Origin: Alphaproteobacteria bacterium
GTDB taxonomy: Bacteria > Pseudomonadota > Alphaproteobacteria > Sphingomonadales > Sphingomonadaceae
Length of the DNA stretch: 64,000 bases
Assembly (NCBI GenBank): GCA_019232625.1
Contig: JAFANP010000055.1
Location: forward strand, 1 to 64,000
Reading direction: 5' to 3'
Part shown: positions 41,145 through 62,460 of the stretch, piece by piece
Position numbering within the stretch: position 1 is the first letter of the stretch
Layout of the letters: the number at the start of each line of letters is the position of its first letter
Position numbers and translations under genes: made by a program
Notes under the pieces: generated by a model
What the model saw: only the letters and a program-made list of their open reading frames with translations
Databases searched by the model: none
Told to the model about the DNA's origin: nothing

Positions 41145-42224
41145 ATGAGTCACGCGTCGTCCGCGGCTCCTATACTGACGGCAGAAATACCTGAAGCTGG
41201 TTTGGCCGGGCACGGACCGGTGGCGAGCGAATGCGCACTGTCGTTCGATCGCGTCACCAAAGTCTATCGCAAGGGCAAGATGGCGCTGTCGGAATTGTCG
41301 TTCGAGGTGCCGCGCGGCACCACGACCGCGCTCCTCGGCCCGAACGGCGCGGGCAAGACCACCGCGATCAAGATCCTCGTCGGGCTGACCGAGCCGACGT
41401 CGGGCCGGGTGGAGATCGGCGGCATGCCCTTCTCCGCCGACCGCCGCCCCTTCCAGCGCCTGGTCGGCTATGTCGGGCAGTTCACGAGCGTCGAGGTCAC
41501 CGCCACGGCGCAGCAGAACCTGGAGCTCCAGGCCGCCTTGTTCCGCCTGCCGCCCGCCGTTCGGAGGCAGCGCATCGAGTATCTGTCGCATCTGTTCGAG
41601 CTCGACCGCCTCGGCGACAAGCGCGCCATGTCGCTTTCCGGGGGCCAGAAGCGCCGCCTCGACATCGCCATGGCGCTGGTCCACGACCCGCAGATCCTGA
41701 TCATGGACGAGCCCACCGTCAGCCTCGACGTCGAGGGCGAGCGGGAGGTCTGGCAGCATCTCGTCGCGACGCGGCGCGAGCAGGAGCTGACCCTGCTCTT
41801 CTCCACCCACTATCTCGACCAGGCGGACCGCTACGCCGAGAACATCCTGTTCATCAACCATGGCAGGCTGGTGACCGCCGGCAGCCCGACCGCTCTCAAG
41901 GAGCTGGTCGAAGGCGACACGATCACGCTCTCCTGCGCGGACAGCAACGCGGCCGCCAGGGGCTACGAGCTGATCGAGCCGCTGCCCTTCATCGAGGCCG
42001 TGTCGGTGCAGGGGGCCAACCTCATCGCCGTCGCGAAGGACGGCCCGCGGGTCATCGCCCGGCTCGTCGGCCAGCTCCAGGAAGCGGGGCTGACGGTGGA
42101 GCAGGTCCAGGTCAGCCGGCCGTCGCTCAACGACGTCTACACTTTGCTTACGGGCGACGACTTCGAGGCGGTGGACGCCGCCGGTCGGCCCATACCCAAG
42201 CCGCAGTTCGGGAGGCCCTTCTAA
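41145..42224 (+). CDS. Thiopeptide cluster: ABC exporter ATP-binding protein (DrrA-like)
   Basis: 359 residues. After a 30-residue lead-in comes an ABC domain: Walker A GPNGAGKTT (65-73), signature LSGGQKRR, Walker B ILIMDEPTVSLD, switch STHYLDQ. A C-terminal extension ends SRPSLNDVYTLLTG, as in DrrA-type drug-export ATPases. It starts the six-gene operon 41145-49367 and pairs with the permease that follows (TAATG overlap). Role: export of the finished peptide and probably self-protection (inference). Confidence 0.9.
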   Translation: MSHASSAAPILTAEIPEAGLAGHGPVASECALSFDRVTKVYRKGKMALSELSFEVPRGTTTALLGPNGAGKTTAIKILVGLTEPTSGRVEIGGMPFSADRRPFQRLVGYVGQFTSVEVTATAQQNLELQAALFRLPPAVRRQRIEYLSHLFELDRLGDKRAMSLSGGQKRRLDIAMALVHDPQILIMDEPTVSLDVEGEREVWQHLVATRREQELTLLFSTHYLDQADRYAENILFINHGRLVTAGSPTALKELVEGDTITLSCADSNAAARGYELIEPLPFIEAVSVQGANLIAVAKDGPRVIARLVGQLQEAGLTVEQVQVSRPSLNDVYTLLTGDDFEAVDAAGRPIPKPQFGRPF

Positions 42225-42985
42225 TGGTCGGAGCTTTGGTCCTCGCGCAGCGCCTGATCCGGAACAACCTCCGGATCCCGATCTTCTTCATTCTCTCGCT
42301 CAGCCAGCCCATCCTCTATCTCGTCCTGTTCGGGCAGCTCTTCTCCCGGGTGACGCCGCTGGTCACCGACCGGACCCACTCGTACGTCGAGTTCCTGGCA
42401 CCCGGGATGGCGATGCTCGCCGCCATGTTCGGCTCGATCTATTCGGGCATCGGAACGCTTGCCGACGTCGACAGGGGCATGTTCGACCGCATCATCACCG
42501 CGCCCATCTCGCGTACGAGCATCGCGATCTCCTACCTCCTGTCGACCTGCTTCCTCGTCGTACTCCAGGCGAGCGTCATCCTGATCGTCTCCGCCTTGAT
42601 GGGTGCGAACCCTCCCGGCGGGCTGGGCGGCGCCTTCGCCGTGATCCTGATCGCCGTGCTGGCGGGCATCGGCTTCGGGGCGATCTCGAACGCGCTCGCC
42701 TTCGCGACGGGCCAGTCGGACGCGATCATGCCGCTGCTCAACTTCCTGACGCTCCCGATGATGTTCCTTTCGACGACCATGATCTCGGCCGGCATGATGC
42801 CGCACTGGATCAAGACCGCGGCGCTGTTCAATCCGCTGAGCTGGTCGGTCTCGGTCGCGCGCGGGGCCTATACCGGCGTGTGGACCGCTCAGACCAGCCT
42901 GTTCCTCGTGCTGATGCTGGGCTTCTGCGCCCTTGCGATCTTCCTGATGCTGGCCGCCTTCGGCCGCTTCCTCAGCCGGCGGTGA
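42224..42985 (+). CDS. Thiopeptide cluster: ABC-2 type permease (DrrB-like)
   Basis: 253 residues with six hydrophobic helices (IPIFFILSLSQPILYLVLFG; FLVVLQASVILIVSALM; FAVILIAVLAGIGFGAI; MPLLNFLTLPMMFLSTTMIS among them) and the ABC-2 consensus region TLPMMFLSTTMISAGMMPHW-IKTAALFNPLSW. It forms the channel for the preceding ATPase. The 3' end overlaps the next gene by GTGA. Confidence 0.9.
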   Translation: MVGALVLAQRLIRNNLRIPIFFILSLSQPILYLVLFGQLFSRVTPLVTDRTHSYVEFLAPGMAMLAAMFGSIYSGIGTLADVDRGMFDRIITAPISRTSIAISYLLSTCFLVVLQASVILIVSALMGANPPGGLGGAFAVILIAVLAGIGFGAISNALAFATGQSDAIMPLLNFLTLPMMFLSTTMISAGMMPHWIKTAALFNPLSWSVSVARGAYTGVWTAQTSLFLVLMLGFCALAIFLMLAAFGRFLSRR

Positions 42986-44829
42986 GCGGCGGGAGCCCGG
43001 CCGCCGGGCTCGGCGATCGCCGCTTCCGGCTGCGCAGCGACGTCACCGTCCTGCTCAACGAGGAAGGGGCGGTGGTGCGCGGCCCCGCCACGTCGCTGGA
43101 GCTGAAGAGCCGCTCGATCGGCGAGGCGATAAGCTGGCTCTGGCCCCGCCTCGACGGAACCCGCCCCCTCGAAGCGGTCACGGCCGAGCTGCCGCCGGGG
43201 ACGCGCGGCGCCATGGCCGGCCTGGTCGCGAGGCTGCACAGCGGCGGCATGCTGCTCGACCTCGTCGAGGAGGATCCGGAGCGCCTTGCCAGGTTGAGCG
43301 GCCTCTACCCAGAGCAGGTGTCGTTCCTCGCCCACCGCAGCGGCACGCCGCTCGCCGCCTTCGACCGCTTTCGTCGCGCCAACATCCGCGTCCAGGGGGA
43401 GGGCGTGGTGCTCCGCAACGTCGCCGCGGCGCTGGCCGATTACGGCGCCCTCAAGGCGCGCTTCGCAACGCCCGCGCCCGACCCGGCGCTGGACCGGCTC
43501 GTGGCGGCGGCGAACGGCCGCGATCCGGAGCGGGATTTCGAGATCGGCGACGGGGGCGGCGAGGCCGGCGGGGAGGGGAATGCCGACATCCTGATCGATG
43601 CCGGCTGCGATCTTGCCGACGCCTTCGCCGCCCGCCTCTGCGACCCCGGGGCGAGCGCCCCCCGCCTGGCCGGCATCTACCGTTCCGGCGAGCGGCTGGC
43701 GGTGCTGCTCCATCTCGGCCGGGACGGGGAGGCTCCTTGCTTCCGCAGCTTCGCCGACGCGGCGCCCAAGCCCCCCGACCCCGAGCCGATCGCACCGGCC
43801 GCCGCCGCGATCGCCGCCCATCATTGCGTCGCCGCCTTGTTTTCGGACCTTACCGGGATCGTCGCGCAGGGCGCGCCGTCGCTGCTCGAGATCGACCAGG
43901 ACCGGCTGACCAGTCGCGCGCGCCGCCTCGCCGGGCACCCGGACTGTCCACGTCATGGCGCGCAGGCGAGCCGGACGGCGCTGCCGGCCGAAGCCGTGCT
44001 GCAGCCGGAGGCGAGCTTCCCGCGACCCGACATACCCGACTCCGTCGCCGCGACGCGCGAGACCTACGACGCCATCCACCGCGCCTCGTCGGCCCTCGTA
44101 GCCCCGGTGGGCGGGCCGTTCCTCGATTTGGGTGAAGCGGACCTCGCGCAGGTGCCGTTCGCCCGAAGCGCCGTTTCGGTGCGCCTTTCGAGCCGCGCCG
44201 GCGGTTCGGACGAGCGCCTCGTCTGTGCCGCGCTGTCGGCGCGGGAGGCGCGCAACCAGGTCATGCTCCTCGCAGCCGAACGATGGTCCGGCAGCGCCTG
44301 CCCGACCGGCGAACCCGGGGAAGCGGGGGTCGGGGCGGGCTGGTCCCTGACGGAGGCCGCCGTGCGCGCGCTGGCAGGGCTTGCGGGCGAAGCGGGGCCG
44401 GACGGCGACATCCGCCGCCTCTCGCTCGAGGAGGTCGCGCGCCACGGCCCGACGACCGCCCACCTCGCCGAGATCGCCGCCGGGCTCGGCTCCCCCGCCT
44501 TGGAGGGCGAGGGCTTCCTGTTGGCGAAGGCCGCGCACGGAGGCTGGCTCTCCTGGCGCGCTTCCGAGCCGTCCAGCTCCCCGGCCCTGGGCGCGACGCC
44601 GGGCCAGGCGCTGGGCAACAGCCTCTTCCGCGCACTGGTCCGATGCATGCCGGATGGCCCCCATGCCGGGACTCTCGTCTGCGACGCGGCCGCCGACGAT
44701 GTCCGCGCCATGCTGGCGGAGGCGTCGCGGCGGGTGGAGTTCGTCGAGATCGACACTCCCATGCCGATCTCCGACGCAGCCGACGGCGTCCGGCTCCGCC
44801 TGGTCGAGGCGAGGCGGCGGCGGCAGTGA
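42982..44829 (+). CDS. Thiopeptide cluster: ocin-ThiF-like leader-binding cyclodehydratase partner (NosH/TbtF-like)
   Basis: 615 residues, GTG start. Similar in size and place to the ocin-ThiF-like proteins that bring the precursor to the YcaO enzyme. The first ~80 residues (RFRLRSDVTVLLNEEGAVVR ... LPPGTRGAMAGLV) look like a RiPP recognition element, a winged helix binding the leader. A degenerate E1/ThiF-like region follows (NIRVQGEGVVLRNVAAAL), and a C-x3-H segment (DCPRHG). No ATP-binding E1 motif is visible, as expected of this class. The assignment leans on context: it directly precedes the YcaO gene. Confidence 0.78.
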   Translation: MSGGSPAAGLGDRRFRLRSDVTVLLNEEGAVVRGPATSLELKSRSIGEAISWLWPRLDGTRPLEAVTAELPPGTRGAMAGLVARLHSGGMLLDLVEEDPERLARLSGLYPEQVSFLAHRSGTPLAAFDRFRRANIRVQGEGVVLRNVAAALADYGALKARFATPAPDPALDRLVAAANGRDPERDFEIGDGGGEAGGEGNADILIDAGCDLADAFAARLCDPGASAPRLAGIYRSGERLAVLLHLGRDGEAPCFRSFADAAPKPPDPEPIAPAAAAIAAHHCVAALFSDLTGIVAQGAPSLLEIDQDRLTSRARRLAGHPDCPRHGAQASRTALPAEAVLQPEASFPRPDIPDSVAATRETYDAIHRASSALVAPVGGPFLDLGEADLAQVPFARSAVSVRLSSRAGGSDERLVCAALSAREARNQVMLLAAERWSGSACPTGEPGEAGVGAGWSLTEAAVRALAGLAGEAGPDGDIRRLSLEEVARHGPTTAHLAEIAAGLGSPALEGEGFLLAKAAHGGWLSWRASEPSSSPALGATPGQALGNSLFRALVRCMPDGPHAGTLVCDAAADDVRAMLAEASRRVEFVEIDTPMPISDAADGVRLRLVEARRRRQ

Positions 44830-46643
44830 GCGGTCTCGCGCCGGCGATGCGCGGGGAGCCGGCGGCGGTGGCGGCGGCGCGCCGCACGCTCGATCGCCGG
44901 CCCGACCTCGCGGCGAGGCTGGCGGAAAGCGGGCTTCCGATCCTGCTGCGGTCCTTCCCCGCGGCCGCCGTGGAGCCGCTGAACGCTTCGGAGGAGGTCG
45001 GCGTCATCGCCGCGCGGTCGGCCTTGTTCGTCGCCCGTCTGCGGGCCGACGGCCCGTGCCCGACCTGTTTCGAGACGGCGCTGGCGCGGGGCGGGGCTCC
45101 CTCCTCGGCGTCGGACGCGTCGCCCTTCCTGCCCGAGACCAATCCCTCGGCGCTGCCGCTCGCGCTCGAGCTCGCCGCCCATGCCGCGGCGTGCGACGCC
45201 GGAGAGGAAGCCGAACCCGTCTGGCGAGTGGACGCCGCCAGCCTGCGAGTGAGCCGCGAAGCCCTGCTTCCGGCGGAGGGCTGCCCGGCTTGCGCGCCCC
45301 CGCCCAGCCGCGGAGACGCCGCAGCGCCGCCCCCGGCCGCGACCGGGCCGGCGGCCTCGCCGACGCGGCGCCGGCCGATCGAGACGCTCCAGGCGCCGCT
45401 GCGCGAGGCCTGCGTCGGACCCTCGCTGGGGCTCGTCCAGGAATGCGGCTTCGACCTCCAGATGCCGGTCGCCGCCGCTTCCGCCTGGTCCCCCGTCAAC
45501 GAGAACAGGCGCGAGCCGACCTTGGGACGCGCCGAGCGCTACGACTTCGCACTGACGGTCGCGCTCGCGGAGGCCCTGGAGCGCAATGCCGGCCTGTTCG
45601 GAGGCATCGGCCATGCCGTCCGCCGAGCGCCCTTGTCCGCCTTGGGCGAGGAGGCGATAGACCCGCGCACCCTCGGCCTTCATCCCGATCCGCTCTACGA
45701 CCGGCCGGGCTTTCCTTTCCGCCGCTTCGACCCGGAGGCGGCGATCAGCTGGGCGGCGGCGCTGGACCTCGGCGCCGGACGCCGGGTGTGGGTGCCGCGC
45801 TGCTTCGCCTTCTACGCCCCGACCGAGGAGCCGGCGCTCGCCTTCGAGACGTCGAACGGCTGCGCCATCGGATCGAGCCTCGCCGAAGCGGCCCTGCACG
45901 GGCTGATCGAGCTCGTCGAACGCGACGCCTTTCTCCACCATTGGTATCGCCGCGCCTCGCCCCCGCGCATCGACGGGATCCTCGCGAGCACGCCCGACCT
46001 CGCCGTCCGCGCGGCGCGTATCCGGCTCTTCACCGGAGCGGAGCTGCAGGTCGTCGATACGACTCGAGATCATCTTATCCCCTCGGTCGCGGTGGTCGCG
46101 CTGCGCGACGGGGGCCGCGGCCCGGCCACCGCCTTGGCGGCCGGCGCCGGCCTAAGCCTGTCGGCGGCAGCGGGCGCCGCCCTGCTCGAGCTCGGCGGCC
46201 ACATGATGCGGCTCGCCGCCCTTTTCGAGGACGAGGCCGAGATCGCCGCTCTGCGCCCGCTTCTCGATCGCTCCGAGACCGTGCGGACGATGGAGCAGCA
46301 CGGGGCCGTCAACGCCTTGCCCGAGGCCCGCTCGCGCTTCGCGCCCCTGCTCGCCGGGCCGCGCTGCGACGGCGAGGGCGGGGGCGCCTGGCGCGCAGCC
46401 GTCCCCGGCGACTCGCCCGAGGCGGTCCTGGCGGCGCTGGTGGCGCGGCTCGAGGCGCTGGGCGAGCGGGTGATCGTCGTCGACCAGACGACGCGGGCCC
46501 TCGCCCGCCTCGGCCTCCACGCCGCCAAGGTCCTCGTGCCGGGCTGGCTGCCGATGACGTTCGGGCACATGTTCCGCCGCACCGCGCTGCCGAGCCTCGC
46601 CGCGGTCGACGACGCCTCCCTCCTTCCCCATCCCTTCCCGTGA
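44826..46643 (+). CDS. Thiopeptide cluster: YcaO cyclodehydratase (NosG/TbtG-like)
   Basis: Uses ATP to turn Cys residues of the core into thiazolines. 605 residues, GTG start in the preceding stop. An N-terminal cyclodehydratase-associated region carries two Cys pairs, Cys78/Cys81 (CPTC) and Cys153/Cys156 (CPAC), likely a zinc site. The YcaO domain starts near residue 205, with LTVALAEALERNAG and NGCAIGSSLAEAALHGLIEL-VERDAF, the ATP/Mg-binding helices. It ends LLPHPFP, the proline-rich C-terminus typical of azoline-forming YcaO enzymes. Confidence 0.9.
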   Translation: MSGLAPAMRGEPAAVAAARRTLDRRPDLAARLAESGLPILLRSFPAAAVEPLNASEEVGVIAARSALFVARLRADGPCPTCFETALARGGAPSSASDASPFLPETNPSALPLALELAAHAAACDAGEEAEPVWRVDAASLRVSREALLPAEGCPACAPPPSRGDAAAPPPAATGPAASPTRRRPIETLQAPLREACVGPSLGLVQECGFDLQMPVAAASAWSPVNENRREPTLGRAERYDFALTVALAEALERNAGLFGGIGHAVRRAPLSALGEEAIDPRTLGLHPDPLYDRPGFPFRRFDPEAAISWAAALDLGAGRRVWVPRCFAFYAPTEEPALAFETSNGCAIGSSLAEAALHGLIELVERDAFLHHWYRRASPPRIDGILASTPDLAVRAARIRLFTGAELQVVDTTRDHLIPSVAVVALRDGGRGPATALAAGAGLSLSAAAGAALLELGGHMMRLAALFEDEAEIAALRPLLDRSETVRTMEQHGAVNALPEARSRFAPLLAGPRCDGEGGGAWRAAVPGDSPEAVLAALVARLEALGERVIVVDQTTRALARLGLHAAKVLVPGWLPMTFGHMFRRTALPSLAAVDDASLLPHPFP

Positions 46644-48184
46644 GGAGCACGGCCGCCTCGGCCGCCTCCGCGGGCGAGAGGGGAGGCGAGGCGCTGGACT
46701 TCATCCGCGCCCTCCACCGCGCGCCGCACGCGACCTTCGTCCCCGACGGTGAGCTGGACTGGAGCCGGGCGCCGCCCTTCCTGCCATCGTCGCTGGGCGC
46801 CTCGCTGGTGGCGCTCCCGCCCGCGGAAGCGCCGTGGCAGGGGGCCGCCGACGAGGACGACGCCTTCGCGGAGCTCGGTCGCTGGCTGGCCTCATCCCTG
46901 ATGTGCCATCGCACCCGGGTGGCGGGCGGCGAGGGGCGGAACGCGAGACGCGCGCCCGCCGCGCGCAGGGCCCTGGCTTCGGGCGGAGCGGCCTATCCGG
47001 CCGACCTTTATCTCCGGTTCGGAGCGGATTGGGCGGCCGTTTCCCCCCTTCTTCCCGGCCATTGGTGGCTGTACCTGCCGCACCGTCATTCGCTCGCCGC
47101 GCATTGCGCAGCGGAGCCGCCGGGACCGGACGACCGGGTCGAGGCGGCCTTGGTCACCGTCCTCTCGCGCACGGCGTTCAAATATCGCGAATTCGCCTAT
47201 CGCCTTTCCGCCGTCGACACCGGCGTCGCCCTGGGGCGGCTGACCGCCTGCCTCGGCGCCGGCGGGGCCGGCTTCGAGGTCGCGGACGCGCCGGAAGGCG
47301 GCGGCCCGCCGCTGATCGAGCCTGAGGAGCAAGCGGCGGCCCGGATCGTCTGCCGCTTTCCCGGCGCCTTGAGGCCATCGGCCGGGGCCGGGACCGGAGC
47401 AGGGGCGCGGCGCCTGAGGGTGGAGGCCGGCAAGGAGGCGCGTCGCGCGGCGATCTCGGCCGGCCAGCCGTCCATCTTCGCCGCCCTCGCCGCCGCGCCC
47501 GCCGCGCCGGCCGCGCCGGCCGGGGCGCCGGCCGTTTCCCCGCCGCCCGCCGGCGCGGGCCGCATCGCCCTGCCGGATCCGCCGGCGAGGGAGCCGCGCC
47601 CGTTGAGGGCCGTCGTCCATGCCAGGCGCTCCGAAGCGACCGCGTTCAGCGGCGTTCCGGTGCCGCTCGCCGCCGTCGCCGCATGCCTTCGCGGCGCGAG
47701 GGGCGCGCTTGCGCCCCTGCACGGCTTCGCCGCGGGGGCCGGGATCGGGATCGGCTGCGCCCTCATCGGCGTGGACGGCGTCGGGCCCGTAGCCGGCCTC
47801 CTGGACGGGCAGGGCGCGGCGCTCGAGATCACCCGGCGCGGCTCCGTCGCGGAGGCGCTCGACCGGGCGATGCTGCTGCACGCGTTCGACATGCGCCAGT
47901 GCGGCTTCGTCCTCCACGTCATCGCGGATATCGAGGGCCCTCTTTGCCGGGAAGGGCCCGTCGCCTACCGCCGCTCCCAGATGGCGGTGGGGGCGATGCT
48001 CGACGCCGCCACCCTCGCGGCGGTCGAGAACGACCTTTCCGCCCACGCCTTCCTCGGCTTCTCCGCGCCGCAGACCGCGCGCCTCTACGGCCTGGATCCG
48101 GAGGGCAGCGTGCTTCCGGTCGCCCAGCTCTGCGTCGGGCGCCCCCGCCAATTCAGCCAGTGGGAGACCGCCATTGTCGGATAA
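46640..48184 (+). CDS. Thiopeptide cluster: azoline dehydrogenase, nitroreductase/SagB type (NosF/TbtE-like)
   Basis: FMN enzyme that oxidises thiazolines to thiazoles. 514 residues, GTG start overlapping the YcaO stop. Two nitroreductase-like halves are visible, about 70-240 (LYLRFGADWAAVSPLLPGHW; SRTAFKYREFAYRLSAVDTG) and about 345-505 (RRSEATAFSGVPVPLAAVAA; QMAVGAMLDAATLA). YREFAYRLSAVDTG is the SagB-type signature. An Ala/Pro-rich linker (AAAPAAPAAPAGAPA) joins the halves. Confidence 0.85.
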   Translation: MRSTAASAASAGERGGEALDFIRALHRAPHATFVPDGELDWSRAPPFLPSSLGASLVALPPAEAPWQGAADEDDAFAELGRWLASSLMCHRTRVAGGEGRNARRAPAARRALASGGAAYPADLYLRFGADWAAVSPLLPGHWWLYLPHRHSLAAHCAAEPPGPDDRVEAALVTVLSRTAFKYREFAYRLSAVDTGVALGRLTACLGAGGAGFEVADAPEGGGPPLIEPEEQAAARIVCRFPGALRPSAGAGTGAGARRLRVEAGKEARRAAISAGQPSIFAALAAAPAAPAAPAGAPAVSPPPAGAGRIALPDPPAREPRPLRAVVHARRSEATAFSGVPVPLAAVAACLRGARGALAPLHGFAAGAGIGIGCALIGVDGVGPVAGLLDGQGAALEITRRGSVAEALDRAMLLHAFDMRQCGFVLHVIADIEGPLCREGPVAYRRSQMAVGAMLDAATLAAVENDLSAHAFLGFSAPQTARLYGLDPEGSVLPVAQLCVGRPRQFSQWETAIVG

Positions 48185-51110: not shown

Positions 51111-51111
51111 G

Positions 51112-53890: not shown

Positions 53891-53905
53891 CGGCCCGCGC
53901 CACCC

Positions 53906-53934: not shown

Positions 53935-54026
53935 AAAGACTTGAAAAGGTCCGGCGGCTTTGGCTTGCGCAGCAGTCCAGATGGTGTCGGTCCATTGTTT
54001 GCGCGCATTAAGAAGGGGAATGACTA

Positions 54027-54215: not shown

Positions 54216-54231
54216 TCTGCTGAAATGACGG

Positions 54232-54265
54232 GGCGGTACGCATTCGACTTGGGATGCGTACCGCC
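54232..54265 (+). terminator. Attenuating hairpin after the precursor gene
   Basis: Perfect 12-bp arms GGCGGTACGCAT (54232-54243) and ATGCGTACCGCC (54254-54265), 10-base loop, then TTCC. It begins 17 bp after the precursor stop. It probably ends most transcripts or protects their 3' end, so that precursor is made in excess over the enzymes downstream. Confidence 0.7.
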
Positions 54266-54310
54266 TTCCAAGAATAGCGACGACAACATCGCAAGAAATC
54301 GGGGGAGTGC

Positions 54311-55549
54311 ATGTTTGCCAGTCAACAGGTCCAGCACAGACCGCAGGTTCGGACTTCCGTCGATGTGTCGTCCTTAAGTCTTTACGTTCACTTTCCTTTT
54401 TGCAGGCAGAAATGTCACTTCTGCGATTGGGTGCAGCGCGTGCCCAAGCAGGATCTTTTGCGGGAAGCGGGCGATTCGAAGCGCAGGAGCTATGTCGACG
54501 CACTGTCGCATGAGCTGCGCGAGCGAGGCATGCGCCTGACCGCGGAAGGCTACCGGCCGACCGTCATCTACTGGGGCGGCGGCACCTCCACGTCGATGAG
54601 CGGCGACGAGGTGGCCGCGATCGTCGAGACCATGAGGGACGGGTTCGATCTTTCGGAGGTCCGCGAGTGGACCATCGAAGGCAGCCCCGACACGGTTTCT
54701 CCCGAATCGCTCGCCCATTACCGCGCGCTCGGCTTCAACCGCTTCAGCGTCGGCGTTCAGTCCTTCCAGGACGGACGGCTGCGCAAGCTCGGCCGCCGCC
54801 ACAACAGCGACCAGGGCCGCGACGCGATCCGCGCGGCGCGGGCGGCGGGGTTCGAGACGGTGAGCCTCGACATCATGTGCGGCTTCGCGGACGAGACGCC
54901 CGAGGAGACCGACGCCAACGTCGCCGCGGCCGTCGACCTCCACCCCGAGCATCTCTCGGTCTACACCTTCCGCCCGACCGAAGGCACCGTCATCCGCCGC
55001 TCGATCGATCACCACCAGGTGAAGCTCGAGGTCGCCCGGCAGCTCGCCTCCTACCAGCGTGCGAGCAAGGCGCTGGTGCGTGCCGGCTACGCCGAATATG
55101 GAGTCGGATATTTCGGACAGCCGGCGGAGAACGTCACCGCGATGTTCCAGCTTCGCTCCGACGTCGCAGGCTTCGGATCGGGAGCGGTGTCGATCATGGA
55201 TGGCACCTATCTCGGCCACACCAGCGGCCTGCTCGACCGTTATATAGACGATCCTTTGCACCATGATTTCGAGCAGTCCTTGATGGCCCCCGGAGTGGCG
55301 CTGTCCCTGCTGCGCAGCGGCCTTTCGATCCATGGCGGGATCGCCGCGGACGATTGGGAGAGGCGGATCGGAGAAAGCCTTGCCGAGAGCTTGCGCCGGC
55401 CGGAGATCGCCCGGCTGCTGGCGATGCTCGACGTCACCGGCGCCGTCGAGCTCAGCGAGGAACGCATCGCCCTGCGGCCGGAAAAGGCGGCGCTGGTGAT
55501 TATCGGCCTGATGAACCAGGCGATGCTCGCCTCCTCCGCGACGCAATGA
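54311..55549 (+). CDS. Thiopeptide cluster: HemN-like radical SAM protein (NosN/TbtI-like class C methylase)
   Basis: 412 residues, ATG with GGGGGAG. FeS triad CRQKCHFC in SLYVHFPFCRQKCHFCDW, then IYWGGGTSTSMS, EGSPDTVS, RFSVGVQSFQDGRLRKLGR, the HemN/HemW-like SAM-binding pattern. The C-terminal region is that of class C methylases. NosN of nosiheptide transfers the C1 unit and closes the side ring; TbtI methylates a thiazole. The neighbouring NosI/J/K-like genes favour a NosN role. Heme synthesis (HemW) is less likely here. Confidence 0.85.
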   Translation: MFASQQVQHRPQVRTSVDVSSLSLYVHFPFCRQKCHFCDWVQRVPKQDLLREAGDSKRRSYVDALSHELRERGMRLTAEGYRPTVIYWGGGTSTSMSGDEVAAIVETMRDGFDLSEVREWTIEGSPDTVSPESLAHYRALGFNRFSVGVQSFQDGRLRKLGRRHNSDQGRDAIRAARAAGFETVSLDIMCGFADETPEETDANVAAAVDLHPEHLSVYTFRPTEGTVIRRSIDHHQVKLEVARQLASYQRASKALVRAGYAEYGVGYFGQPAENVTAMFQLRSDVAGFGSGAVSIMDGTYLGHTSGLLDRYIDDPLHHDFEQSLMAPGVALSLLRSGLSIHGGIAADDWERRIGESLAESLRRPEIARLLAMLDVTGAVELSEERIALRPEKAALVIIGLMNQAMLASSATQ

Positions 55550-58251
55550 CGGGCCTCGACGCCGCCGCCGAGCGCCCCACTGCTGACATGACCGGGATCG
55601 GCGCCGCGGGCTTCGACGAGAGCGAGGCGACGCCGCTCGCCGCGCCGCGTCCGCAGGTCGCCGGCCTGATCCTGTCGAGGCGCTGCGCGCTGGACTTCGC
55701 GGCGCTGGGGCCGCTCGGCGCCGAGGCGGCGATGGCGACGCTCGCCGAGGCGGAGCGGCTTGCAGGAAGCTGCGCCGAGGCGGCGGAGGCGCTCGCCGGC
55801 GCTCTCTTCCCCCTGGTGTCGCGCTGTTCCGAGACGGAGCGCCGCATCGTGCTCGCCGTGAAGCGCGCCGTCCACAACCAGCGCGACGTGACTCCGGAGC
55901 AGGCGGCGGCGCTGATCGCGCTCGGCGGTCCCGCCGTGGACGACGCGCTGGCGCGCTACGGCCGTTCCCGCGCCGAGGCGATCGACGCGCGCCGACGTGC
56001 CGAAGCGCAGTTCGAGGCGACTCTCGACGGCGGCCGTCGCACGATCGCGACGCTGGCCGGCGGGCAGGATTTCCTGAAGGCGCTCCACCTTTCCGGGCGG
56101 CAGCTCGTCGAGAGCAGCTGGCGCTACAGCCGCGGCGTCCTGGAGGAAGGGCGCTGCGACAAGGCGTCGCGGAAGATGGAAGCGCGGCTGGTCAGCTTCC
56201 TCTATCGGATGGCGCTGAAGCCGTCGCCTTTCGGCTCTTTCGTCGAGCTGCGCTTCCACGCGCGCGACTCGGCCCCGTCGACCGAATCGGCCCCGACCCG
56301 TCACGTCGTCGTCGCGCGGATGCTGCTCCTTTGGCTGGTCAACAACCTGCTGCGCTATCCGCCGATCGCCGCCCAGGCCCGGCTGAGGCTCAACCCGCTC
56401 ATCACGTGGGAGCCGGATCGGCTCACCTTCTTCCGGCGCGCGGAAGAGGGGGCCTACGACATGTTCGGGCGCGAGCGGTTCGTCGCATTGCCGCGACGCC
56501 CGGCCATCGACCGGCTGCTCGCCGCCGCCGCGCGCCAAGGCAGCGTCCCCGCCCTGATCGAGGAGATGGTCGGGCATGGGGAGGACGAGGCGACTGTGCG
56601 GGCGGTGCTGGAGCGGCTGATCGAATGCGGCGCCATCGAGCGGACCTTGAACATCCCCGATCAGACGTTGCGCTACGCGCGCGCCGCCGCCGAGGCCTTC
56701 GCTTCGATGCCCGGAGAGGCGGCGGAGCGGGCGAGCCAGGCCTTCGCCAACATCGACGCGATGGAGACGGAGTTCGCCGAGGCGGACGTCGCGGGCCGCA
56801 TCAGCCTGGTCGGGCGGCTCTACGGCGAGATCGAATCGGCCAGCGCCATTTCGGGCGATTCCGTTCCCGGCCCCGAGGGCATCAAGACCTATTTCTACGA
56901 GGAGGTCGGCTCGCGCGTGCCGGCGGACGCGATCGTGCCGGAAATCCCCGAATCGGTCGTCTCGGACCTCGCCGACCTCACCCCGGCGATCGGCCTGTTC
57001 GACGAGATACTGATCGAGCGCCTCGCCCTCTACCATTTCTTCCGGGAGCGATTCGGCGAGTCGGGCGCGCCGGTGCCGCTCCTCGACATGTACAAGGCCT
57101 TTTCCAGCCTCGCCCCGGAGGAGATCGATCGTCGTCTCGCCGGCGGCGACTGCCCGGAAGTGGCCGCCCTCTCCGTCCTGCGGCGCGAGTGGATCCAGGA
57201 GGTTCGGGCGCGTCTCGCCGAGCATGGCGGGGACGAGGTGGACCTGCGCGCGGTCGCTCCGGACCTGTTCAGGCCGCCGCACCGTGCGTTCGCGCGGCCG
57301 TGGGATTCGGCGAGCTTTTATCTCCAGCCGAGCGATGCCGCCTTTGGGGGGCCGATCGCGATGAACGGCGCGACCATGGGCCATGGGGCGGCCATGGCGC
57401 GCTTTTGCTCCGTTCTGGAGGAAAGGTCGGAACTCGGCGCCGTGCTTCGCCGGTCGGACGAACGGGCCTTTCCCGAGGCGCGCCGCGCGGATCTGACGGC
57501 GGTGCTCGGCACCAACACCAACCTCCATCCCCCCGTCTGGGCGGAGCAGATCGAATATCCCGGCTCACTCGCCGCCGACGACGGCCGGCCGGTGCTCCAT
57601 CTGAACGCGCTCGCCGTCTCCGCCGACCCGGACACGCACCGGCTGGTGCTCACCAGCGAAGGCGATCCGCGGCCGATCGACCTGACGCCGCTCAATGCCC
57701 TCTATCCGACCATCGGGCCGAGCCTCTATCGCTTCCTCAGCCTCCTCTCGCCCTACGGGAACTTCCGCAGCCGGGCGTGGCTGCTGCACCTCACCGAGCG
57801 CGGGCGCGGCCTCTCCGGCCTGCCGCGGATCCGCTACGGATCGATCGTCCTGCAGCGGCGCTGCCGGATCGTCGGCGCCGATGCGGCGGCGACGCTCGCG
57901 GAGACCGATCCGATGACGCTCGAGGGCCTGGCCGCGTTCGAGGCCTGGCGCCGGGCGCACGACCTGCCCCGCCGGGGCTTCTATTCCGGCTTCGCCGAAG
58001 CCGGGTCGGGCCGAGGGCGATCGACGGTGGAAGCCGTGCTCAAGCAGTCGCGGCAGATGCGGCTGCGCAAGCCCCATTTCTACGACTTCGCCAATCCTTT
58101 TCTGATGCGTGCGCTTCGCGCGCACCTTTCCGCGAACCCGGAGCTGAGCCTGCTGTTCGAGGAATGCCTGCCCGACGCCGCCTGCTACGAAGGCGGCGGC
58201 CCCTCCCGCGCGGAGGAGTTCATCGTCCAGCTGGACGTGCCCCGCCGATGA
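55546..58251 (+). CDS. Thiopeptide cluster: LanB-type glutamylating dehydratase (NosE/TbtB-like)
   Basis: Glutamyl-tRNA-dependent esterification of Ser/Thr, first half of dehydration. 901 residues from ATG 55546 (ATGA overlap); the open frame reaches further up but inside the radical SAM gene. Lantibiotic dehydratase N-terminal domain features: SRKMEARLVSFLYRMALKPS-PFGSFVEL, and RWLPSPLL-like counterparts later (FYLQPSDAAFGG; VLGTNTNLHPPVWAEQIEYP; LHLNALAVS). It lacks a C-terminal elimination domain, which is the separate next gene, the split layout of thiopeptide clusters. Confidence 0.92.
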   Translation: MTGLDAAAERPTADMTGIGAAGFDESEATPLAAPRPQVAGLILSRRCALDFAALGPLGAEAAMATLAEAERLAGSCAEAAEALAGALFPLVSRCSETERRIVLAVKRAVHNQRDVTPEQAAALIALGGPAVDDALARYGRSRAEAIDARRRAEAQFEATLDGGRRTIATLAGGQDFLKALHLSGRQLVESSWRYSRGVLEEGRCDKASRKMEARLVSFLYRMALKPSPFGSFVELRFHARDSAPSTESAPTRHVVVARMLLLWLVNNLLRYPPIAAQARLRLNPLITWEPDRLTFFRRAEEGAYDMFGRERFVALPRRPAIDRLLAAAARQGSVPALIEEMVGHGEDEATVRAVLERLIECGAIERTLNIPDQTLRYARAAAEAFASMPGEAAERASQAFANIDAMETEFAEADVAGRISLVGRLYGEIESASAISGDSVPGPEGIKTYFYEEVGSRVPADAIVPEIPESVVSDLADLTPAIGLFDEILIERLALYHFFRERFGESGAPVPLLDMYKAFSSLAPEEIDRRLAGGDCPEVAALSVLRREWIQEVRARLAEHGGDEVDLRAVAPDLFRPPHRAFARPWDSASFYLQPSDAAFGGPIAMNGATMGHGAAMARFCSVLEERSELGAVLRRSDERAFPEARRADLTAVLGTNTNLHPPVWAEQIEYPGSLAADDGRPVLHLNALAVSADPDTHRLVLTSEGDPRPIDLTPLNALYPTIGPSLYRFLSLLSPYGNFRSRAWLLHLTERGRGLSGLPRIRYGSIVLQRRCRIVGADAAATLAETDPMTLEGLAAFEAWRRAHDLPRRGFYSGFAEAGSGRGRSTVEAVLKQSRQMRLRKPHFYDFANPFLMRALRAHLSANPELSLLFEECLPDAACYEGGGPSRAEEFIVQLDVPRR

Positions 58252-59156
58252 CCGACGTGCCGCCGTGGATCTGCTGGCATCTCTTCTACCATTCGAACCA
58301 GGACGCCATCCTGGCCGAAGCGGTGAAGCCGCTGGTGGACGAGCTGGATGCCGGAGGGCATCTCTCCGGATTCTTCTTCCTGCGCTACTGGGACGGCGGG
58401 CCGCACCTCAGGCTGCGCTTCCGCCCGGCGGCCGCGGCCTTCGCGCCCGCCCTCGTCGAGCGGGTCGAATCGGCCCTGCGCGCGGGCGTGCGGGAGACTC
58501 CCAGCACCGCGCCGATCGATGCCGTCACCTATGCGCGGATGGCCGGGCATCTCGGCCGCGCCGAGGGGGTGGAGGCCGAATCGCTGCGCCCCGACAACCT
58601 CCTCGAGCGGCGCGACTACGTCCCCGAGACGGGGAAATATGGCGAGGGCGCCGGCATGGCGTGCGCCGAGCGGATATTCTCGGCGAGCAGCCGCGCAGCG
58701 CTCGATTCGCTGGTGCGGCGGCCGGACCGGCGCGGCGCGATCGGCGCAGGGCTTCTGGCGATGCTCTCCGGGCTTTCCGCCCTCGGCCACGACGCGGCGA
58801 GCGCCAAGGCGTTCCTCGCCCGCTACGCCGGCTTCTGGGGCGAGCATGCCAAGACGGTGCAGGGCGAGGCCGTGCGGCACGGTGCGGTGACGGCCGCGCC
58901 CGCTCTGGCGGAGGTGGCGCAGGCGATCCTCGGCGGCGGCCGCATCCCAGGTCCGCTCGCCGGCTGGGCTCGGGCGCTCTCCGGCGCCCGCGAGGCGCTG
59001 GGGCTTCGCCCCGGCGTCGAGCCGGACGCTCGGCGGGACTTCCTCGCCACCAATTATTTCCACACCCACAACAACCGGCTCGGCCTCCTCACCCTGGACG
59101 AAGCCTATCTGGGCCGGCTCGCGGACGCCTCGCTGGCGAGGCGGGAGGCGGCATGA
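58248..59156 (+). CDS. Thiopeptide cluster: split LanB elimination domain (NosD/TbtC-like)
   Basis: Removes glutamate to form dehydroalanine/dehydrobutyrine. 302 residues of the thiopeptide-type SpaB C-terminal-like family: WICWHLFYHSNQDAILAEAV, FFFLRYWDGGPHLRLRF, TGKYGEGAGMACAERIFSAS and the C-terminal NYFHTHNNRLGL. ATG within the stop of the dehydratase gene. HTHNNRLG is the family's C-terminal signature. Confidence 0.9.
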   Translation: MTDVPPWICWHLFYHSNQDAILAEAVKPLVDELDAGGHLSGFFFLRYWDGGPHLRLRFRPAAAAFAPALVERVESALRAGVRETPSTAPIDAVTYARMAGHLGRAEGVEAESLRPDNLLERRDYVPETGKYGEGAGMACAERIFSASSRAALDSLVRRPDRRGAIGAGLLAMLSGLSALGHDAASAKAFLARYAGFWGEHAKTVQGEAVRHGAVTAAPALAEVAQAILGGGRIPGPLAGWARALSGAREALGLRPGVEPDARRDFLATNYFHTHNNRLGLLTLDEAYLGRLADASLARREAA

Positions 59157-59869
59157 ACGCCGCCGCCGCCGCGCCCGGAATCATCGTCCTCCACGGGCTG
59201 ATGGGGACCGCCGCGAGCCATTTCGGCCGGCCGATGGCCGCCTGGCGGGAGCGGCGGCGCGTCTATCCGGTCGACCTTCCCGGCCACGGCGCCTGCAAGG
59301 CCGATGCGCCGGCAGCCTATTACAGCCGGGTGGCGGACTGGTTCTGCCGCGCGCTCGAGGCGGTGGGGCCGGCCCATGTCGTCGGCGCCTCCTATCTCGG
59401 CGGCACGCTCGGCCTCCTCGCCGCGCGGCGCCGCCCGGACCTGCTGCGCTCGCTCGTCGTCACGGGCTATACGGCGGAGGTGCCGCCCGCCGCCTTCGTC
59501 GCCTGGAGCGCCAGCTTCAAGATGCTCGCCGACGCGAACCCAGGGATGCAGGCGGCCTATCGGCAGCTCCACGGGCCGCGCTGGGGCGACACGCTCGCCG
59601 CCGTCACCGAGGATTGCAAGGCGTCCTACGAGACGGTGATCGCGATGCGCTGGAGCGAGATCGAGGCGCTGCCCCTACCGGTGCTGCTGGCGAACGGCGA
59701 CCTCAAGCAGAACGAGCGGGAGGCGGCCGGCCGCTACGCCTCGGGGATCGGGGCCATCACCGGGCGGGTCATCGAGGATGCCGGCCATCTGCCGATGGTC
59801 GACCGTCCGGAGGCCTTCGCCGCCGCGGTGGAGGAGTTTTGGCTGGAGCAGGACGGGGGCCACGCGTGA
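59153..59869 (+). CDS. Thiopeptide cluster: alpha/beta hydrolase acyltransferase (NosK-like)
   Basis: 238 residues, ATGA overlap. alpha/beta-hydrolase fold: oxyanion VLHGLMGT, nucleophile Ser80 in VGASYLGGT, His212 in DAGHLPMVDRPE; Asp183 in NGDLKQ is a possible acid. In nosiheptide, NosK moves the indolyl acyl group from carrier NosJ to the peptide cysteine. Direct adjacency to the carrier (59866) and the ligase (60066) supports that job here. Confidence 0.85.
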   Translation: MNAAAAAPGIIVLHGLMGTAASHFGRPMAAWRERRRVYPVDLPGHGACKADAPAAYYSRVADWFCRALEAVGPAHVVGASYLGGTLGLLAARRRPDLLRSLVVTGYTAEVPPAAFVAWSASFKMLADANPGMQAAYRQLHGPRWGDTLAAVTEDCKASYETVIAMRWSEIEALPLPVLLANGDLKQNEREAAGRYASGIGAITGRVIEDAGHLPMVDRPEAFAAAVEEFWLEQDGGHA

Positions 59870-60069
59870 ACAAGGCGGAATTGAAGGCGGAGCTTGAAGG
59901 AGTCATCCAGGACACGGTCGAGACCAGGCCGCTCGACAGCCTGGAGATGCTCGTCGTGCGGACGCTGATCCGCAGCAAGGGTATCGAGCTCGGGGACGAG
60001 GACGGCCCGTCGGAACCGACGATCAGGGGATGGATGGAATGGCTTTGCGCGCATTCGCCGGATGGATGA
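59866..60069 (+). CDS. Thiopeptide cluster: minimal acyl carrier protein (NosJ-like)
   Basis: 67 residues, GTG start inside the hydrolase stop. The phosphopantetheine site is RPLDSLEMLV with Ser25, in the DSL context of carrier proteins. Helices before and after fit a trimmed carrier fold. Easily missed because of size. It would hold the aryl acid activated by the next gene and hand it to the hydrolase-type acyltransferase. Confidence 0.82.
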   Translation: MNKAELKAELEGVIQDTVETRPLDSLEMLVVRTLIRSKGIELGDEDGPSEPTIRGWMEWLCAHSPDG

Positions 60070-61346
60070 ACGACGCCGCCGCGGCGGCCGCTTCGCGCAA
60101 CGGGGTGACGATCGGCGAGGCCTTCGTCAGCTGGCGTGACATCGACCGGAAGGCGGCGGCGCAGGCGCGCGACCTGCGCCCTTTCGCCACCTACGTCGTC
60201 GACCCCGATGCCGGCCATGACAGCTTCGTGGCGCTCCTCGCGGTGGCGCGCACGCCCGCGGCGGCCTTGCTCTGGGGGGTGCCGGCCGAGCTGCCGCTGC
60301 CGTCCGAGAAGATCGCGCCGGGGCTGCACGTCGCCGAGCCCAACCCGCTGCTGCGCCGGCTCGGCGACCGTCCGCTCTACGGCTCGTTGACCTCCGGATC
60401 GAGCGGGACGGCCAAGCTCCCGATCGGCTTTGCCGACCAGATGACGCTCACCGGCTTCCACTACGACAAGATGCTCTACGAGCCGACGCTGGGCGAGCCG
60501 GGGGAGGGCGGCACCCTCGCGACCGGGCTGCCGCCGGCCTATTCCGCGACCTTGATGATGGCGATCATCCCGGCCTGGCATACGGCGCGCAACCTGCTGG
60601 TCGTCCGGCCCGACCGCTGGGACCTCATCCATGCCCAGGCGGCGAAGGCGAAGGTGATGGCGATGAGCGTTCCGGCGCTGCTGCCGCTCGCCTGCGCCTC
60701 GGCCCCCAAGGGGAGCCGGGGCGCCGGGCTCACCCTCCTCACCACCGCCGGCTACCTCACCCGCAGCCGCATCGCCGCCGTGCGCGAGCGGCTCGACGAG
60801 GCGGGGCTGATGAGCTCCTACGGCGCCAGCGAGACGGGGGTGATGACCCTCGATCCGGCGCCGACCGGCGAGCTGCACGTCGGCCGGCCGCTGTTCGGCA
60901 AGCCGGTCTGGCTGTCGGGCGCCGGCGACGATTCGGTCGGCAAGGTCACCACGTCCGGGCCCGATTGCCGCGAATATTATCTCGACGGGGCGCCGATCCG
61001 CCACATGGACGGGACGGTGGCGATGACCGACCTCGGCCATTTCGACGGCAGCGGGCAATTGTATCTCGACGGGCGGCTAGACGCGGGCGAGAAGATGCGC
61101 GGCGTGACCATTTATCCGCGCCGGATCGAGCGCCACCTCCTGGGAATGCGCGATCTCGAGGATGCCAAGGTGCAGGTCCTCCCCGGCGCCGGCCTCGCCC
61201 CGGACCGCCTGGTGGCGACGATCGTCGGCAATGTCAGCGAGGAGGCGGTCCGCGCTTATTGCGAGCCACTGCCCGATTTCCTTCGACCCACCCATTATGT
61301 CATCAAGGCGGCCGAGCTCGCTTATTCGAACCGGGGGAAACTATAG
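60066..61346 (+). CDS. Thiopeptide cluster: acid-AMP ligase (NosI-like)
   Basis: Activates a carboxylic acid with ATP and loads it on the carrier. 426 residues from ATG 60066, overlapping the carrier stop. ANL-family motifs: P-loop TSGSSGTAKLP (109-119), SYGASETG (251-258), MTDLGHFD (Asp322), DGRLD, and catalytic Lys425 in SNRGKL at the very end. Shorter than acyl-CoA ligases, with the fatty-acid-recognition part missing, consistent with a small aryl acid substrate. Confidence 0.88.
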   Translation: MNDAAAAAASRNGVTIGEAFVSWRDIDRKAAAQARDLRPFATYVVDPDAGHDSFVALLAVARTPAAALLWGVPAELPLPSEKIAPGLHVAEPNPLLRRLGDRPLYGSLTSGSSGTAKLPIGFADQMTLTGFHYDKMLYEPTLGEPGEGGTLATGLPPAYSATLMMAIIPAWHTARNLLVVRPDRWDLIHAQAAKAKVMAMSVPALLPLACASAPKGSRGAGLTLLTTAGYLTRSRIAAVRERLDEAGLMSSYGASETGVMTLDPAPTGELHVGRPLFGKPVWLSGAGDDSVGKVTTSGPDCREYYLDGAPIRHMDGTVAMTDLGHFDGSGQLYLDGRLDAGEKMRGVTIYPRRIERHLLGMRDLEDAKVQVLPGAGLAPDRLVATIVGNVSEEAVRAYCEPLPDFLRPTHYVIKAAELAYSNRGKL

Positions 61347-61347
61347 C

Positions 61348-62460
61348 GTGCCGGCTCCCGCCCGACGTCCTTCAATGCCGTCTCATGTCGAAGTCCACAC
61401 GGACGAGTCCGTGCCGGGCCACGGCGCGCTGCCGACCCTCGTCGAGACGATCCTGCCGGCCGTCCGGGAGAGCGGCGCCCTCGACGCGCAGGCCTGCTAT
61501 TTCGACCGCCTCCTCGCCGACGGAACGGAGCGGCTGCGACTCAGCTTCGCGCCGGGGGACGCCGGAGAGCGGGCGCTGGCCCTTCTTTCGGAGCGGCTGG
61601 AGGCGCAGGGCCGCCACGCGCCCTATCGCGTCATCCACAGCCCGGGGCGAATGCTCTCGGAGCTCGTCACCGGCCCCAAGGCGGGCGAGGTGTTCGAGCG
61701 GTTCAGCCGGCGAACCGCGCCGCTGCTCTTCGGCTGGCTAGAGGATTTCGCCGACGGCCGCGCCCGGCTGCCGAGCCTCGCCTTCGATCTCCTCGCCATC
61801 CAGATACTGAGCCGCGCCGATCCCGCCGCGGCGCCGGGGAAGCGCCCTGCCTATCCGCGGTCCTTCCTCACCTACCGGTCGCACGCCGACGGATTCTTCA
61901 TCATGGCGCGCCGGCCCGACGAGGCGCGCGCCGCGGTCGAGGCGCGCTATGCCCGCGTCGCGCTGGCGTCGCAGGCGCGGCTGCGCGCTCTGCAGGAGGC
62001 GGTGAATGCCGATGCGCTCCCGCCCGAGCTCGCCGCCTGGCGGGCCGCCATGTCGACGATGCTGCGCGAGGTGCGCGAGGCGATCGACGAGGGGGCCATC
62101 TATTTCTCGGCCGGGACGGGCTATCTCGGCGACCAGAACGACCTTTCCGAAAGCCAATTCCACCAGAAGATCCAGTCGTCTTTCGGCTTCCAGTCCTTCA
62201 TGCGCTTCAACCACGCCTTCCTTGCGACGCGGCTCACCATGGGCCTCCTCTACCTGTCGCTGCGCCGGCTTGGCCTCCCGATCCTCGACCGCTATTTCCT
62301 CTGCCACGCCGTCGCCCGCTCGGTTGAGGATGTCTACCAGCTCGATCCGGTCGCCGAGCTGCACGAGTTCCTGGTCGAATCCCTCACCCCCAAATGGTGG
62401 GGCGGAATCGTCCTGCAGCCCCTCGTCCGCTTCGCGGTGCGTTACCTGCCGAGGCTTTAG
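61348..62460 (+). CDS. Thiopeptide cluster: candidate pyridine synthase (NosO/TbtD-like)
   Basis: Formal [4+2] cycloaddition of two dehydroalanines to form the pyridine macrocycle. 370 residues from GTG 61348 (GGGGGA upstream; ATG 61375 is the alternative). It belongs to the thiopeptide-type biosynthesis family: ACYFDRLLADGTERLRLSF near the N-terminus is the counterpart of the YxDG/LRLRF strand in the eliminase. The C-terminal half is all-helical (SSFGFQSFMRFNHAFLATRL; LPILDRYFLCHAVARSVEDV). It is the only unassigned family member, which supports the role. Last gene of the operon. Confidence 0.75.
   Translation: MPAPARRPSMPSHVEVHTDESVPGHGALPTLVETILPAVRESGALDAQACYFDRLLADGTERLRLSFAPGDAGERALALLSERLEAQGRHAPYRVIHSPGRMLSELVTGPKAGEVFERFSRRTAPLLFGWLEDFADGRARLPSLAFDLLAIQILSRADPAAAPGKRPAYPRSFLTYRSHADGFFIMARRPDEARAAVEARYARVALASQARLRALQEAVNADALPPELAAWRAAMSTMLREVREAIDEGAIYFSAGTGYLGDQNDLSESQFHQKIQSSFGFQSFMRFNHAFLATRLTMGLLYLSLRRLGLPILDRYFLCHAVARSVEDVYQLDPVAELHEFLVESLTPKWWGGIVLQPLVRFAVRYLPRL

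Follow-up and report, generated by a model that had tools for sequence, protein, structure and literature searches.

Positions 41145–62460 of the stretch of sphingomonad DNA analysed here (64,000 nucleotides of contig JAFANP010000055.1, assembly GCA_019232625.1; hereafter the window) contain a gene cluster that resembles those for the thiopeptide nosiheptide. It comprises 14 plus-strand genes in two runs, 41145–49367 and 54027–62460, with a four-gene minus-strand run, 53779–49398, between them, and inside each of the three runs adjacent genes overlap or lie less than 100 bases apart. The first plus-strand run encodes, in this order, an ABC transporter ATPase, an ABC-2 permease, an ocin-ThiF-like protein, a YcaO protein, a SagB-like protein and a cytochrome P450; the second encodes a precursor peptide, a radical S-adenosylmethionine (SAM) enzyme, a split LanB protein (LanB N and LanB C), an alpha/beta hydrolase, a small carrier protein, an adenylating enzyme and a pyridine synthase; and the minus-strand run encodes an aldehyde dehydrogenase, a DUF5946 protein, a methyltransferase and a protein resembling tryptophan 2,3-dioxygenase (TDO). 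Each of the 18 frames runs uninterrupted between its start and stop codons and has the third-position guanine-plus-cytosine (GC) pattern of coding DNA; the start sites are our choice, and several of them are GTG or TTG. The GC content is 0.67–0.76 within the cluster versus 0.66–0.75 in the rest of the window. An earlier note on this DNA had described two plus-strand operons, which stand, but had overlooked the minus-strand operon 49398–53779 between them.

The precursor carries KVMSASCTTCECCCSCS; it is 62 residues long and its C-terminal end is KVMSASCTTCECCCSCSILVDEPTSA, where the core SCTTCECCCSCS is followed by a nine-residue tail, ILVDEPTSA. It scores above the cut-offs of two curated thiopeptide-precursor models, NF033401 and TIGR03892, which bears out the 62-residue thiopeptide precursor proposed in the earlier note. 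The first 12 core residues equal the actinomycete nosiheptide-type core letter for letter, and the 13th residue, a Ser in the latter, gives way to ILVDEPTSA. The 17 residues ahead of the tail are identical in seven of nine actinomycete nosiheptide-type precursors and differ by one residue in the other two, which argues that the cluster is no chance assembly. In a ten-row alignment the segment from KVMSAS through SCS is invariant save position 8, where eight rows, including the window, have Cys (presumably nosiheptide's own core) and two have Ser. The persiathiacin core is SCTTCECSCSCSS (PMC11406533, cited here from excerpts, as are the other articles below).

The core was also sought with a degenerate nucleotide pattern encoding CTTCECxC[S-like]C in genomes of 84,980 species (one genome per species, contigs of at least 3,000 bases; the set may leave out the window's own genome). 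Of the 11 stretches returned, nine are precursors ending in KVMSASCTTCEC[C/S]CSCSS, from Streptomyces (five) and Actinoplanes, Actinokineospora, Actinoalloteichus and Micromonospora (one each), all of which we take to be actinomycetes. The other two were judged to be chance matches: in an Oscillospiraceae metagenome-assembled genome (L005) the match lies in a long frame without a thiopeptide-like leader by eye, and in Sphingomonas adhaesiva (L010) it falls within a polA-like gene, on the same strand but out of that gene's frame. The scan thus yielded no other Gram-negative nosiheptide-core precursor and no second one from a sphingomonad.

The enzymes around the precursor point to the same pathway. 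They were compared by tblastn with nine actinomycete loci of at most 8 kb each, cut such that a miss shows no absence, and with longer stretches of four of these nine genomes, one of them cut; over both comparisons the cluster enzymes are 25–47% identical to their actinomycete counterparts. The YcaO protein is 34% identical in one of the nine loci and 35–38% in three of the four longer stretches, and in three of the four the SagB-like protein, LanB N and LanB C are 30–32, 31–32 and 33–36% identical to NosF, NosE and NosD, respectively. The ThiF-like protein matches five of the nine loci at 25–32% (25% over 143 residues in L013) and the NosH position in all four longer stretches at 28–33%, one match being short. 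The pyridine synthase is locally 30–37% identical to NosO in seven of the nine loci, and it matches the solved structures of TsrE (PDB code 7cww), TbtD (5wa3) and PbtD (5w98); NosO homologues are the proposed pyridine makers (excerpts of PMC11406533 and PMC5585349). The only P450 in the cluster scores 131 and 78 bits against the two P450s downstream of NosD in one actinomycete stretch (L050), and is nearer to the first, which by gene order is presumably NosC. Taken together, homologues of NosD, E, F, G, H, I, J, K, M, N and O occur in one locus. The enzyme classes named in the earlier note are all present, with profile and PDB matches, and its assignment to the nosiheptide type agrees with the core sequence, with the NosD to NosO homologues other than NosL, and with the YcaO and LanB C trees described below; its inventory was right for the machinery it listed, but the NosN-, NosK-, NosJ- and NosI-like genes and a second cluster in the genome had been missed.

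These four genes form a putative set for loading the side ring. The radical SAM enzyme is 44–47% identical to NosN in eight of the nine loci and scores 348 bits against the solved NocN versus 110 bits against HemN. The hydrolase is 41–46% identical to NosK in seven loci, and the adenylating enzyme 36–39% in six loci over 422–450 aligned positions. The carrier, encoded separately from the hydrolase, has no match in Pfam or NCBIfam and is 37–43% identical to proteins of four loci. In alignment rows, the identities between window and actinomycetes are 42–45% for NosN, 35–38% for NosI and 39–44% for NosK, whereas actinomycete rows compared with one another average 75, 64 and 59%, with minima of 69, 56 and 51%, respectively; a few of these rows come from the same genome as another row, which lifts the averages slightly. 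Since the cross-group identities lie below those among actinomycetes and the core is invariant, the enzymes have diverged far around a fixed core. Of the positions invariant in the actinomycete sets, the window retains 94 of 155 in the NosI-like, 51 of 73 in the NosK-like and 137 of 235 in the NosN-like protein. In the described pathway the acid is adenylated by NosI, which also charges NosJ with it; NosK carries the acid over to Cys8, NosN adds a methyl group to it, and Glu6 completes the ester. The two sources disagree on the order of NosN methylation and transfer (excerpts of PMC11406533 and PMC5585349).

One enzyme of this pathway was not found. With the Actinoplanes protein L003:3963–5159 as query (681 bits to the solved NosL), no match to the indolic-acid synthase NosL was obtained at an expect value (E) of 1 or below in the window's own whole genome, which is rated 99.99% complete, whereas in a positive control the same query matched all nine actinomycete genomes with the core. 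Two BATS-domain proteins of the genome were considered as NosL candidates and set aside, as by eye they look like BioB. NosA was sought with the L050 protein that, by its position, we take to be NosA-like: the search covered the window and gave no match below E 1.4. Its absence is the weaker statement, because the query matches two of three other actinomycete genomes (L048 and L054) and misses L052/L053. In nosiheptide, NosA cleaves the C-terminal dehydroalanine (excerpt of PMC11406533), and in place of the Ser on which NosA acts the precursor has Ile plus eight more residues.

The minus-strand operon faces the precursor. Its first gene diverges from the precursor gene across 247 bp, and at its other end 30 bases separate the last stop codon from that of the P450 gene; the divergent region, a candidate shared control region for operon and precursor, has AAGGGGA ahead of the precursor ATG, and a repeat search detected no notable repeats in it. 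The TDO-like protein has 570 residues, and solved TDOs match it only at E 0.011–0.02; it has the blocks HDE (216), GFR (285), WRTFH (RTFH at 372) and RGTGG (388) aligned to them, which we take to hold the TDO base, carboxylate-binding and heme-ligand residues, including a candidate heme-ligand histidine. Residues 205–423 are 31% identical (E 1.3e-8) to a protein (L045) from a genome of the Actinoplanes phylum that itself exceeds the PF03301 cut-off at 55.3 bits, a transitive superfamily match by which the protein is assigned, from its sequence, to the tryptophan 2,3-dioxygenase superfamily. At E ≤ 0.001 it matches four of 385 class genomes, at full length only its own, and three of 296 genomes of the Actinoplanes phylum, all partially. 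Weak matches to its C-terminal part were judged spurious, as L043 resembles PheT, L047 a peptidase, and L046 is an arginine-rich frame. The profile matches of the aldehyde dehydrogenase and the methyltransferase are generic, and DUF5946 is a domain of unknown function. The L045 protein lies next to a kynureninase; at L055:7872–10996 (minus strand), in a genome of the Actinoplanes phylum, a divergent TDO directly adjoins a kynureninase, with siderophore-type and O-methyltransferase genes near. Aryl acids that depend on TDO, such as 3-hydroxyquinaldic acid, occur in other peptide antibiotics.

Table 1 Features of the cluster, in window coordinates, with the matches on which each label is based
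Feature	Position	Strand	Basis
ABC transporter ATPase (DrrA-like), likely product exporter	41145–42224	+	PF00005 110.5 bits; TIGR01188 237.4 bits, under cut-off 312.45
ABC-2 permease (DrrB-like)	42224–42985	+	PF01061 101 bits
NosH-like ocin-ThiF partner protein, leader-binding by homology	42982–44829	+	TIGR03693 45.7 bits, far under cut-off 561.9
NosG-like YcaO cyclodehydratase	44826–46643	+	PF02624 225.6 bits; TIGR03604 238.2 bits, over cut-off
NosF-like SagB-type azoline dehydrogenase	46640–48184	+	TIGR03605 45.6 bits, under cut-off 78.4
Cytochrome P450	48174–49367	+	PF00067 79.7 bits; heme motif FGYGIHYCVG at 334
TDO superfamily enzyme extended at both the N and the C terminus; candidate for the first step towards another side-ring acid	49398–51110	-	PF03301 23.7 bits, E 3.8e-5, under cut-off 34.9
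Class I SAM methyltransferase	51112–51762	-	PF13649 55.2 bits
DUF5946 protein	51781–52323	-	PF19371 146.8 bits
Aldehyde dehydrogenase	52334–53779	-	PF00171 515 bits
247-bp divergent region, minus operon to precursor	53780–54026	.	Flanking frame coordinates
Precursor peptide, 62 residues	54027–54215	+	NF033401 53.9 bits (cut-off 37.5); TIGR03892 39.5 bits (cut-off 25)
NosN-like class C radical SAM methylase	54311–55549	+	NocN (PDB 9p2u) 348 bits; CRQKCHFC at 31
NosE-like LanB glutamylation (dehydratase) protein, LanB N	55546–58251	+	PF04738 109.2 bits
NosD-like LanB elimination protein, LanB C	58248–59156	+	PF14028 137.7 bits; TIGR03891 111.6 bits, over cut-off
NosK-like alpha/beta hydrolase (acyl transfer)	59153–59869	+	PF12697 68.9 bits
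NosJ-like stand-alone mini carrier protein, 67 residues	59866–60069	+	DSL at residues 24–26; similarity to actinomycete loci
NosI-like acid-adenylating enzyme	60030–61346	+	PF00501 23.8 bits, under cut-off 29.9
NosO-like pyridine synthase ([4+2] cyclase)	61348–62460	+	NF045556 135.6 bits, under equivalog cut-off 325

The trees place the cluster with the actinomycete lineage. In the YcaO tree the window protein joins four actinomycete NosG proteins with support 100/100, and five host-family proteins fall on the opposite side; in the LanB C tree, where long-branch warnings concern host-family rows, it groups with the actinomycete nosiheptide proteins (98/96). LanB N matches actinomycete loci and, at E ≤ 1e-3, none of the host family's other loci. 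From these trees and matches the cluster is judged to be a long-separated branch of the nosiheptide lineage, rather than a modification of the host family's other clusters. Its distribution is narrow in the genome sets surveyed, those for order, family, class and phylum being samples of larger groups: the NosN-like protein was found in one of 397 family genomes (E ≤ 1e-35) and the pyridine synthase, as protein query, in one of 26 genus genomes; this query is specific, as it gives no match to the second cluster of the same genome. The NF045556 model matched five of 396 order genomes at E ≤ 0.001, none over its cut-off, with long matches in the window's own genome, G233 and G368 and short ones in G392 and G177, and one of 398 phylum genomes, again its own. 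Plasmid searches with the TDO-like protein, the NosN-like protein (E limit 1e-40) and the pyridine synthase gave no match; LanB N has partial 19–30% matches in six records, including Lactobacillus paragasseri JV-V03, and DUF5946 matches in three. The NosN-like protein had no match among viral contigs, and four cluster proteins had none in PHROGs. Rfam gave no matches in the window, and no tRNA was found there.

The upstream flank points to the host. Upstream, at 34675–41009, lie a TonB-dependent receptor (minus strand, a frame of 939 residues) and a sulfate ABC transporter set. The best plasmid matches of the sulfate-binding protein are in Novosphingobium (74.5%) and Sphingomonas (73.2%) and those of the TonB receptor in Sphingomonas (68.3 and 66.9%); those of the CysW-like protein are mixed (Ensifer 71.9%, Novosphingobium 71.0%, Shinella 69.4%). 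The host is taken to be a sphingomonad on account of two of these three proteins. Downstream, a run at 63059–64000 of the window (63059–66972 on the contig) encodes a ferritin-like di-iron protein, a carbamoyltransferase, a DUF5989 protein and one further protein. Relatives of the carbamoyltransferase (63799–65517) occur in five of 25 other genus genomes at 37–46% identity, and since none of these five has a match to the pyridine synthase the gene is placed outside the cluster; the run is possibly separate from it, and a tailoring role may be considered.

Thiopeptide-like clusters of another kind occur in the same family. The window's own genome has a second one (L024, G000:C28:68000–87999; genes L024:3583–16893, minus strand), whose precursor ends in ETGASPSIIYSCSCSYTPPEPGDAPRRLA and scores 30.7 bits against NF033400 (cut-off 30), and whose other genes encode a pyridine synthase, LanB N, LanB C, YcaO, an adenylation plus carrier protein and a P450. 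Four more host-family genomes have loci with YcaO and LanB C (L026/L030 in G233, L027 in G368, L028 in G392 and L029 in G177), with short candidate precursors that have ETGAS or ETAAS ahead of the core in the leader and a C-terminal tail; only the G233 precursor exceeds curated cut-offs (NF033400, 63.9 bits, and TIGR03892). The survey suggests that a set of thiopeptide-like clusters in the host family has been overlooked.

We conclude that this is a real, intact-looking and deeply diverged nosiheptide-like cluster in a sphingomonad, an observation that is confirmed and stronger than first stated. At a probability of roughly 0.72 we read the locus as a relative of the nosiheptide/nocathiacin (series e) clusters with the following pathway, its functions assigned by homology. 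The ThiF-like, YcaO and SagB-like proteins would convert core cysteines to thiazoles, and the split LanB pair would dehydrate Ser and Thr. The NosI-like enzyme would charge the NosJ-like carrier with an aryl acid, the NosN-like and NosK-like enzymes would methylate the acid and hand it to Cys8, and the activated methylene would be captured by Glu6 to close the side ring. The NosO-like enzyme would join Ser1 and Ser10 in the pyridine with release of the leader, and the DrrAB-like exporter would remove the product. The C-terminus would have to differ from that of nosiheptide, as the Ser on which NosA acts is replaced and the window yielded no NosA.

The side ring probably arises by a route other than NosL. 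As a replacement source of the acid the TDO-type operon is the best candidate, and because NosL was not found and this operon faces the precursor across 247 bp, we tentatively infer, at somewhat less than even odds, that it supplies a different tryptophan-derived aryl acid, for instance a kynurenine-derived one, in place of 3-methyl-2-indolic acid. The product might then be a macrobicyclic thiopeptide with a kynurenine-, anthranilate- or quinoline-type ring between Cys8 and Glu6, made by a heme TDO-type route in place of NosL and with a C-terminus formed without NosA; this full picture, too, is a little less likely than not. Several points weigh against these readings. Only its position ties the minus operon to the cluster; a profile search found no kynureninase in it, a comparison of the TDO-like protein with the actinomycete stretches gave nothing at E ≤ 1e-3 (as expected, NosL being there), and no second example of it beside a thiopeptide cluster was found among the 385 class genomes. 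The retained residues of the NosN-, NosI- and NosK-like proteins would fit indolic acid as well, and the NosH-, NosF-, NosI-, NosO- and TDO-like profile scores lie under curated cut-offs. For self-resistance, a TSNR-type 23S rRNA methyltransferase was sought and TSNR_N reached 12.4 bits, under its cut-off of 28.3. The earlier note called the cluster complete, which in the strict sense is not supported: the genome search gave no NosL and the window search no NosA, there is one P450, and no TSNR match exceeds the cut-off.

That the side ring remains 3-methyl-2-indolic acid, or a simple acid of indole or aryl type, made by an unrecognised enzyme elsewhere or taken up, with the minus operon serving unrelated metabolism, is doubtful but deserves the most attention among the alternatives. 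It agrees with the invariant actinomycete positions retained by the NosI-, NosK- and NosN-like proteins, as counted above, and with the generic matches in the operon and the unknown function of DUF5946; against it stand the NosL search, which gave nothing at E ≤ 1 and had a working control, the two BATS-domain proteins of the genome, which by eye look like BioB, and the tight placement of the operon, with 30 bases to the P450 stop and 247 to the precursor. Loss of NosL (own genome) and NosA (window), neither of which was found, together with the isolation of the cluster in one of 397 family and one of 26 genus genomes, could also mark a decaying relic that makes no product or a thiopeptide free of a side ring. 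We consider such decay improbable, given 18 of 18 open frames with a coding GC pattern and the retention of Glu6, Cys8 and the motifs although the enzymes are less than 50% identical.

That a foreign cluster entered a sphingomonad assembly through contamination or a chimeric contig is very unlikely: the assembly has 66 contigs and an estimated contamination of 3.89%, and the flank evidence comes from one side, with mixed best matches for the CysW-like protein (one of three upstream proteins), but the cluster sits on a 111-kb contig next to a sulfate-binding protein and a TonB receptor that best match Novosphingobium and Sphingomonas plasmids, its GC content (0.67–0.76) is close to that elsewhere in the window (0.66–0.75), and its 25–47% enzyme identity to actinomycetes is far below the identities among them. 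Least credible of all is a goadsporin- or dehydrazole-like ribosomally synthesized and post-translationally modified peptide without pyridine; goadsporin clusters also have YcaO and LanB (excerpt of PMC4603692), but here a pyridine-synthase homologue is present and the precursor exceeds two thiopeptide-precursor cut-offs, so that the other peptide class named beforehand as a refutation was not borne out.

The diverged nosiheptide-like cluster extends this scaffold from actinomycetes to a Gram-negative host, and an unchanged core among enzymes less than 50% identical shows how strongly that core is held. With NosL not found, a direct question is which acid the NosI, J, K and N relatives load; a natural alternative acid, if true, would be a ready-made part for new side rings on thiopeptide antibiotics. 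Among the matches listed in the open PMC literature, seen as titles and the starts of abstracts and mostly excluding subscription papers, none describes a nosiheptide-type cluster in sphingomonads; a Sphingomonas article (PMC9950776), in its excerpt, names thiopeptides merely as detectable by antiSMASH.

Compared with known systems, the window has the core SCTTCECCCSCS, the pre-core KVMSA and the NosD to NosO homologues, NosL excepted, in common with the nosiheptide-type clusters (Cys8; L003, L004, L006, L008, L009, L012 and L013), and its NosJ-like carrier stands alone as NosJ does in nosiheptide (excerpt of PMC11406533). It differs from them in NosL (not found in the genome) and NosA (not found in the window), the nine-residue tail, the single P450, the minus operon between two plus operons, the 25–47% identity and the Gram-negative host. 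With the nocathiacin/persiathiacin clusters (Ser8 cores, here seen in L007 and L011) it shares a NosN/NocN-type methylase and the series e machinery; their core has Ser8, however, and the window has Cys8, one P450, no sugar genes seen, and a carrier apart from the NosK-like protein, whereas in nocathiacin the carrier protein is fused to a NosK-like protein (excerpt of PMC11406533).

The host-family clusters (L024, L026/L030, L027, L028 and L029) have YcaO, LanB C and short tailed precursors, as does the window, but their cores are unlike nosiheptide, they give no NosN-like match at E ≤ 1e-3, and their YcaO proteins lie on the opposite side of the tree. Thiostrepton-type thiopeptides with a quinaldic acid, and lactocillin, follow the same logic of adenylating enzyme, carrier and hydrolase for an aryl acid. 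The LclJ/I/K proteins of lactocillin, however, show no sequence relationship to NosI/J/K, and lactocillin lacks a side ring (excerpt of PMC5585349). Known TDOs, including the L055 protein, have the superfamily motif blocks in common with the TDO-like protein of the window; compared with the L055 TDO, to which it is 29–31% identical over 219–229 residues, the latter is distinguished by its length of 570 residues, its extra regions and its place beside a thiopeptide cluster.

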